Below, piece after piece: positions 3,320 through 51,192 of a stretch of DNA of 64,000 bases. The translations under genes were made by a program, and so were the position numbers. The stretch lies in the NCBI GenBank assembly GCA_017652765.1, contig JAGCAJ010000011.1, positions 1-64,000 on the forward strand, read 5' to 3'. The notes beneath the pieces are model-generated. The model made no database searches and was not told the origin of the DNA. It saw only the letters and a program-made list of their open reading frames with translations. This DNA is from Candidatus Saccharimonadota bacterium. Its GTDB lineage: Bacteria > Patescibacteriota > Saccharimonadia > Saccharimonadales > Saccharimonadaceae. Position 1 is the first letter of the stretch, and each line of letters begins with the position of its first letter.

Positions 3320-3413
3320 AAATTGATGCACAAAAAAGGGTGATTTTTGAGATTAAATCACCATTTAATTTGCGTCTATAACCTGAGTTTTCCACAGGTT
3401 CACCTGTTGGTGA
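3320..3413. repeat. Left 94-bp direct repeat of the island
   Basis: This aligns without gaps to 13638-13731, with about 79 of 94 positions identical by eye. Mismatches cluster in the terminator loop and in one 8-nt block. Both copies contain, on the minus strand, a terminator stem (GGTGATTT/AAATCACC followed by six T) and an AACCTG/CAGGTT hairpin, and both end with TTGGTGA. In the right copy that end is the 3' end of tRNA-Lys. The geometry (tRNA 3' end plus a distant copy 10.3 kb away) is that of an integrated element's att sites, although I see no integrase inside. Confidence 0.7.
3332..3362 (-). terminator. Minus-strand intrinsic terminator within left repeat
   Basis: The stem pairs 3339-3346 (GGTGATTT) with 3355-3362 (AAATCACC). 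On the minus strand it is followed by a run of six T (3332-3337). It matches the terminator of tRNA-Lys at 13650-13680, although no functional RNA is obvious upstream of this copy. Confidence 0.55.
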
Positions 3414-50128: not shown

Positions 50129-50232
50129 ATTCCTCCTTTTGTCCTCTAATTATAACACAGCCATCCCCACCCCGTAATTCTGGCCAAACATTGTGGAAAA
50201 CTTGCAATTTCAAAAAAGCATAAAAATTGTGC

Positions 50233-50264
50233 TTGACAAAAGCGTTCGGGGGGGGGGGTATTAT
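50233..50264 (+). promoter_or_regulatory. Poly-G promoter, likely phase variable
   Basis: TTGACA 50233-50238 and TATTAT 50259-50264 are separated by 20 bases, of which the last 11 are G (50248-50258). The optimal spacing of 17 would need eight G. Slippage in the G tract would change promoter strength. The arrangement equals that of Neisseria porA. Confidence 0.75.
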
Positions 50265-50319
50265 GAGAATACAAAAGGTCATAAATATAAAAACTGACAT
50301 AAAGAAAGGAACAAACACT

Positions 50320-51192
50320 ATGTCCAAAACTACAAAAATCATTGCTGCCCTCGGCGTTGTCGCCAGCCTCGGCGTCGCCGCCTTGCCAGCATTTACATAT
50401 GCAACCAGCACTACTGGTGATGTGCAAGTTGTTGTAGAAGTTGATTCAGCTATCGCTATGACAATTGAAGGAAATAACGATTCTGGCAGTCATAAGCCAG
50501 AGTCATACACTGTAGTTGCAGAACCTGATTCCGGATCGATGGGGAGCTACTACGAACGCTCTGGAGCAGAAGGCTCTTATGCTTACACTCTCACAGAGGA
50601 TTCAACACCAGCTAGCGGAAAAACTTATTATACTAAGGACGCAGATTTGAGCTACGCTAAAGTCGACAACGCTGCCCCTACATCCCCAGTTAGCGTAGCC
50701 GGCAAGACGCTTGACGGACATTCTATCCCAGCAACGCTTGTACCTGGCACATCATCTTCTTATGCTAGCCTACTTCCAAACTCTACCGTTGCAGGCGGAG
50801 AATTCAAGTCTACGATTACGGTCTTCACTAATAATGCCACTGGTTACAGCCTAACCGTTAAAGATAAAGACGCAAACACCGCGCTAACCAGCTCTAACGG
50901 CTCCACTATTGCAGCTGGCACAAACATTGCGGCAGGCACTTCCGCTTGGGCCTACAGAGTCGCCAGTATAAACGGCTCCGCTGATGGTACGACGCGTCCA
51001 GGTACCGCCATTCAAGACCCAGTTTGGGTAGCAGTGAATCCATCCACTGGCCAAGATGCTGAAATCACCCGTCTAGATACCAAGACTTCTGGTGGTGATC
51101 AGACAGTTGTTGAATATGGCGTATCAACTTCCGGCGACCAAGCTACTGGTATCTATGGCGACGTTATCGTCTATACCGCAACGACCAAATAA
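50320..51192 (+). CDS. Secreted surface protein under a poly-G promoter
   Basis: About 290 residues. Signal peptide MSKTTKIIAALGVVASLGVA with cleavage probably after the TYA near residue 30. The mature part is Ser/Thr/Gly-rich, beta-type, with the phrase YYERSGAEGSYAYTLTED then GKTYYTKD, resembling repeated units of surface adhesins, and FTNNATGYSLTVKD resembling WxL-type domains. No anchor is visible at the C-terminus (YGDVIVYTATTK). The ribosome-binding site is AAAGAAAGGA. Function unknown, probably an antigen or adhesin. Confidence 0.75.
   Translation: MSKTTKIIAALGVVASLGVAALPAFTYATSTTGDVQVVVEVDSAIAMTIEGNNDSGSHKPESYTVVAEPDSGSMGSYYERSGAEGSYAYTLTEDSTPASGKTYYTKDADLSYAKVDNAAPTSPVSVAGKTLDGHSIPATLVPGTSSSYASLLPNSTVAGGEFKSTITVFTNNATGYSLTVKDKDANTALTSSNGSTIAAGTNIAAGTSAWAYRVASINGSADGTTRPGTAIQDPVWVAVNPSTGQDAEITRLDTKTSGGDQTVVEYGVSTSGDQATGIYGDVIVYTATTK

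Follow-up and report, generated by a model that had tools for sequence, protein, structure and literature searches.

The G11 promoter and its gene

The window, that is the whole stretch of 64,000 nt analyzed here, contains a gene for an exported protein of 290 amino acids (50320–51192, + strand), which is flanked by rubrerythrin/ruvC and ruvB and was delineated by its ORF, signal peptide, homologs and structure model. Residues 1–28, ending in ...LPAFTYA, constitute the signal peptide (50320–50403, + strand). It is nearly invariant among the homologs, which share the sequence MSKxTKIIAALGVVAGLGVAALPAFTYA, and this bears out the first-pass annotation of the product as an exported protein.

The promoter is located 55 nt 5' of the ATG. 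Direct reading of the + strand revealed a -35 hexamer TTGACA (50233–50238), which is either TTGACA or TTGACT in homologous promoters, a fixed nine-base spacer part AAAGCGTTC (50239–50247), the G11 tract GGGGGGGGGGG (50248–50258) and the -10 hexamer TATTAT (50259–50264) abutting the 3' end of the tract. The resulting spacer of 9 + 11 = 20 nt is exactly as first described. In tract-bearing relatives the fixed part reads AAAGCGTCT, AAACCGTTC or AAACGGTCT. From this reading and the tract lengths of homologous promoters, the G11 tract is predicted to be a length switch. Downstream of the -10 hexamer, homolog comparison identified a conserved leader motif AAGGTCATA (50275–50283, + strand), which is found at the same distance of 12–13 nt from the -10 in other tract-bearing promoters. 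It is followed by the likely ribosome-binding site AGAAAGGAA (50303–50311, + strand), assigned from the sequence and kept in homologs. A consensus scan of the region just upstream of the gene found no other sigma-70-like promoter with a spacer of 16–18 nt. The G11 tract is the only run of eight or more Gs in the 64-kb window, in which 0.0064 G/C runs of 11 are expected from its GG and CC frequencies.

An additional element, TGTGGAAAAC (50192–50201, + strand), is present upstream of most homologous promoters. It lies approx. 30 nt 5' of the -35 hexamer and at a similar distance in most genes of the 290-aa protein family; the complement of the element is similar to a DnaA box.

Searches of Pfam assigned no family to the 290-aa protein, and Rfam yielded no RNA family around its gene. 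Homologs are encoded in 12 of 60 related genomes examined, and paralogs occur in the own genome. An AlphaFold2 model calculated with 20 homologs displayed a beta-sandwich (mean pLDDT 80.8). The matches from fold comparison include TLP-1a/b (Z 7.5), the Csu pilin (Z 7.1) and the TasA fibre (Z 5.9); the best Foldseek E-value was 1.9e-3 and VIA Z scores ranged from 5.9 to 7.6, where values below 8 may reflect just a common arrangement. The modeled fold thus vaguely resembles fibre and pilus subunits, below the level that shows kinship. The likeness to TasA-like and chaperone-usher-type fibre subunits is one of fold only, and no sequence relation to them was found. Identity with a PorA porin was ruled out by the lack of a Pfam family together with the beta-sandwich model. 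The protein is probably located at the surface, where it may form a fibre.

Tract length varies among homologous promoters

Homologous promoters free of a G tract (19 distinct sequences) have spacers of 17 nt in 14 cases, 18 nt in three and 16 nt in two. They share the -35, the -10 and usually the leader motif, 12–15 nt after the -10. Tract-bearing copies were found six times in five assemblies, with spacers of 18–21 nt. Besides the G11 of the window, they comprise G9 from water deer ileum (L206), G10 and G11 in tandem genes of one genome from sheep ileum (L205; tandem pair L173/L205), G11 from sheep ileum (L213) and G12 from goat rumen (L202). The genomes of the relatives are named Candidatus Saccharibacteria and come for the most part from the gut of goats, sheep and deer. 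All six copies are situated between rubrerythrin and ruvB, which are adjacent with nothing between them in two other relatives (L178 and L179).

Across the six copies, -35, -10 and leader are nearly constant, while the tract ranges from 9 to 12; as the lengths were read from metagenome assemblies, they may be wrong by one or more. The two tandem copies differ by one G (G10 vs G11). Likewise, the window and L202 have -35, -10 and leader unchanged over approx. 60 nt and a tract that differs by one G. Comparison of tract lengths in relatives had been proposed as a check, and the lengths indeed vary (9, 10, 11, 11, 11, 12) in otherwise near-identical promoters. The earlier suggestion that loss of Gs restores an optimal spacer also agrees with the data, as removal of two to three Gs gives the 17–18 nt of tract-free homologs. 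In five of the six assembled tract copies the spacer is 19–21 nt, indicating that the predicted ON state is rare among them. Contig ends beside tracts were considered as a sign of length polymorphism and dropped, because at least one such pair of ends is accounted for by a repeat.

The mature part of the protein is hypervariable

The closest relative is the goat-rumen sequence L202, in which RuvB is 99.7%, RuvA 97%, RuvC 96% and rubrerythrin 94% identical to the proteins of the window. The DNA behind the gene is 97% identical, and little divergence is seen in the DNA of promoter, leader and signal peptide. In contrast, the mature proteins are just 56% identical. Preservation of promoter and signal peptide next to a protein identity of 56% fits the expectation for a variable surface antigen.

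Alignment of the cassette (50320–51192) with L202:5001–5867 gave approx. 85–97% DNA identity for the signal peptide and the 3' region, and less than 50% for most of the mature part. The neighbouring genes flanking the cassette are 94–100% identical in protein. L202 carries approx. 550 additional bases before ruvB.

G-tract promoters recur in the family and the phylum

The pattern TTGA-N0-14-G8-N0-12-TANNNT was searched in 199 genomes of the family, with the reversed pattern as control. It yielded 178 matches, including a few tracts counted repeatedly, vs 11 for the reversed pattern. The matches are distributed over 39 of the 199 genomes and 24 of 61 genera; the remaining 160 genomes do not have the strict pattern. 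A poly-C version produced two matches, whereas abutting poly-G tracts with TTGAC number at least 77 among the sites listed. In the phylum, the strict form occurs in 21 of 381 genomes belonging to many families, with one control match. Among the abutting sites listed, lengths of 9 or 10 predominate over the shortest accepted length of eight, a distribution that chance runs would not give. Up to approx. 15 sites per genome display the same promoter design in relatives. Pooled spacer counts dip at 17 nt, a dip that follows the mix of promoter families. The fixed spacer part and the tract length are not correlated across sites (Spearman -0.08), and compensation between them is not claimed.

About 20 further G tracts lacking TTGA were inspected in two genomes. 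Approximately eight still abut a -10 and are preceded at 18–19 nt by a weaker -35 (TTGCAT, TTGCGC, TTGTGC and similar), and several others fall within the first codons of ORFs. Both promoter and first-codon G tracts occur in a second family of exported proteins, of approx. 490 aa, in genomes close to that of the window. Tracts of G9–G13 in first ORF codons, members of the 490-aa family included, were noted at L243 and L253 (genome G633), L244 (G628) and L195–L199 (G062); these are candidates for phase variation at the level of translation within this group.

Genes downstream of G-tract promoters

The genes behind 84 sites were classified by a simple hydropathy and motif rule, which is not a trained predictor. 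They include 11 type IV pilins, 11 collagen-like proteins with the motif LPxPGxDxGxWG and 32 proteins with an N-terminal hydrophobic segment. Outside genus g44, whose exclusion was decided after the data were seen, 54 of 65 genes are of the surface type vs 19 of 56 genes of the window taken as background (Fisher p 3.6e-8). The bias is weaker with g44 included (54 of 84, p 5e-4). None of the 19 downstream proteins of g44 (genomes G079, G132 and G156) is N-terminally hydrophobic, which indicates that the poly-G design serves other proteins in this genus. The three of them tested had no Pfam family; the g44 proteins are possibly effectors or another class. Many G-tract promoters were seen in g44 (L101–L114), and its genomes contain tens of tracts of at least nine Gs each.

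The collagen-like family consists of a conserved N-terminal segment M(T/P)RLPxPGxDxGxWGxILNDYLSxxH followed by collagen repeats. It is present in multiple copies in genomes G093, G147, G198 and G209 (e.g. L084, L087, L090, L099 and L115), each copy with its own G-tract promoter. Pfam Collagen was detected in the member tested, and the family resembles phage tail fibres (PHROGs).

Other long G tracts in the same genome

The genome of the window (748 kb, 21 contigs) contains three tracts of at least nine Gs in total. A G15 tract is part of the promoter-like sequence TTGACT-C-G15-TAAAAT (C21:34047–34074). It lies 3' of tail-like genes and 62 nt from the end of contig C21, by which the gene behind it is cut off. 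A G9 tract (C9:167–175, - strand) abuts TATAAC upstream of a signal-peptide-like ORF. This locus has three copies in the closest relative, two of which reach into a signal peptide.

Contig C21 (34,136 bp; L074, L075) appears as a temperate phage or prophage contig with genes for terminase, portal, capsid, integrase and collagen-like tail proteins. An amidase-like phage ORF (L074:5643–7505) carries an apparent intein- or HINT-like insertion (CLPIDETELLTPDGWKSLSAIEVGD...). No relatives of this phage-like contig were found among viral contigs, and none of the five matches that a general pattern scan returned from viral contigs is tied to the Saccharibacteria group. Searching eleven related genomes with the C21 tail gene recovered its own copy alone. 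Two near-identical stretches of approx. 100 bases were also noted in the window itself, at 3396 (- strand) and 13714 (- strand): GAACCTGTGGAAAACTCAGGTT...GGTGATTTA...ATCACCCTTTTTTGTGCATCAATTT.

Discussion

With a probability of about 0.86, the G11 promoter is a slipped-strand phase-variable promoter of the porA/opc type. The first-pass annotation had named it a candidate of this kind from the sequence; that reading gains support from the variation in tract length, the normal spacing of tract-free promoters, the exported and hypervariable product and the recurrence of the design in the family. Replication slippage would add or remove Gs and thereby change the distance between -35 and -10. Sigma-70 RNA polymerase would read the promoter well at G8–G9 (17–18 nt) and poorly at G11, the assembled state (20 nt). 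Since G8–G9 restores the normal spacer, G11 is predicted to be weak or OFF. Cells expressing one exported hypervariable surface or fibre protein would then coexist in a population with cells in which its gene is OFF, and the same switch would be used repeatedly in the family, mostly for type IV pilins and exported proteins, with one genus as exception. From the comparative data we infer slippage within the population and a transcriptional effect of the tract length. On the same grounds, Saccharibacteria of this family very probably switch surface proteins on and off by slippage.

Homopolymers of such length are expected to change often by slipped-strand mispairing when mismatch repair is lacking. 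The MutS mismatch-recognition domain was found in none of the 20 genomes searched, including that of the window, and in 11 of 14 control genomes. Because MutS was not found, frequent change of the G tract is expected.

The tract could be real and unstable and still work no switch, if polymerase tolerated spacers of 18–21 nt, the promoter being constitutive or slightly tuned and its length variation neutral. Tract promoters do persist with spacers of 18–21 nt, mostly above the 17–18 nt of tract-free ones. Chance retention of unstable poly-G in the spacers of surface-type genes is hardly expected, however, and the enrichment over the reversed and poly-C controls, the enrichment for surface-type genes and the failure to find MutS all make a neutral tract improbable. 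Even less probable is that the G run acts not via spacing but as a fixed site for protein binding or by folding into a G-quadruplex on the non-template strand. Such an action would suit the location of the tract, almost always on the non-template strand, and the lengths of G11 and G15, barely sufficient for a two- or three-tetrad quadruplex. It is at odds with the prevalence of tracts just 8–10 long, with their position directly before the -10 and at promoter spacing from a -35, and with the single-G differences between related copies.

All data derive from metagenome assemblies, and the tracts of several relatives are close to contig ends, as might be seen if poly-G calls of two-colour sequencing chemistry had caused an assembly or sequencing artefact. 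This explanation is hardly credible given that five independent assemblies show the same tract in this promoter with flanks conserved on both sides, that the tracts are biased in strand and position, and that a shared repeat accounts for at least one pair of the contig ends. We attach just as negligible a probability to translational phase variation at this locus, with the tract inside a longer frame from TTG 50227 and its length setting the frame. An in-frame ORF from 50227 does exist, and other G tracts of relatives are found in the first codons of ORFs, but the homologs start at the ATG of MSK..., with a conserved Shine-Dalgarno sequence downstream of the tract, and this start is shared by homologs free of a tract.

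A phase-variable promoter of this type has precedents. In Neisseria meningitidis, the porA, opc and fetA promoters contain a homopolymer between -35 and -10, an arrangement thought to alter sigma-factor binding (PMC2791445). The promoter described here likewise has the homopolymer in its spacer, where length would shift the spacing around the optimum, and a product that is probably associated with the cell surface. Unlike the Neisseria systems it belongs to another phylum, to ultrasmall and presumably episymbiotic bacteria, and its switching is predicted from sequence; its product, a predicted beta-sandwich, is unrelated to the Neisseria porin. The episymbiotic lifestyle of the source organism is likely from its taxon. 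Coding-region poly-G contingency loci of Campylobacter jejuni and Neisseria resemble the Saccharibacteria tracts in their length of approx. 8–13 and their association with surface structures, and some Saccharibacteria tracts also lie in first codons. In contrast to these loci, the tract of the window lies in a promoter and should alter transcription, not the reading frame.

Our literature search, outside of which lay preprints and many journals, retrieved no description of phase-variable promoters from Saccharibacteria or other Patescibacteria. The nearest report is on a Gracilibacterium with a hypervariable repeat in a coding region (PMC6851277). While the mechanism is already known, its presence and scale in Patescibacteria appear to be new. 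We lean towards the broader view, taken as a whole, that a large system of contingency loci operates in Saccharibacteria and in scattered other Patescibacteria. It would comprise type IV pilins, collagen-like proteins, signal-peptide proteins and possibly phage genes, each with its own poly-G spacer promoter or first-codon poly-G, in genomes without MutS, and would be combined with a rapid swap of the mature part of the antigen.

It is an open question how ultrasmall episymbionts choose and switch hosts, and in Nanosynbacter lyticus type IV pili are known to play a part in host binding (PMC12206443). If the system exists, each cell would carry a random set of contact proteins, which could decide the host bacterium for attachment and could help to evade countermeasures of host or phage. 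It would also be the first promoter phase variation described in Patescibacteria, as far as the literature searched shows. Promoter slippage is directly testable on existing metagenome reads. If pilin and surface genes switch at random in this way, even a clone would contain cells with different surface types, and this heterogeneity could be at the root of shifts in host range.
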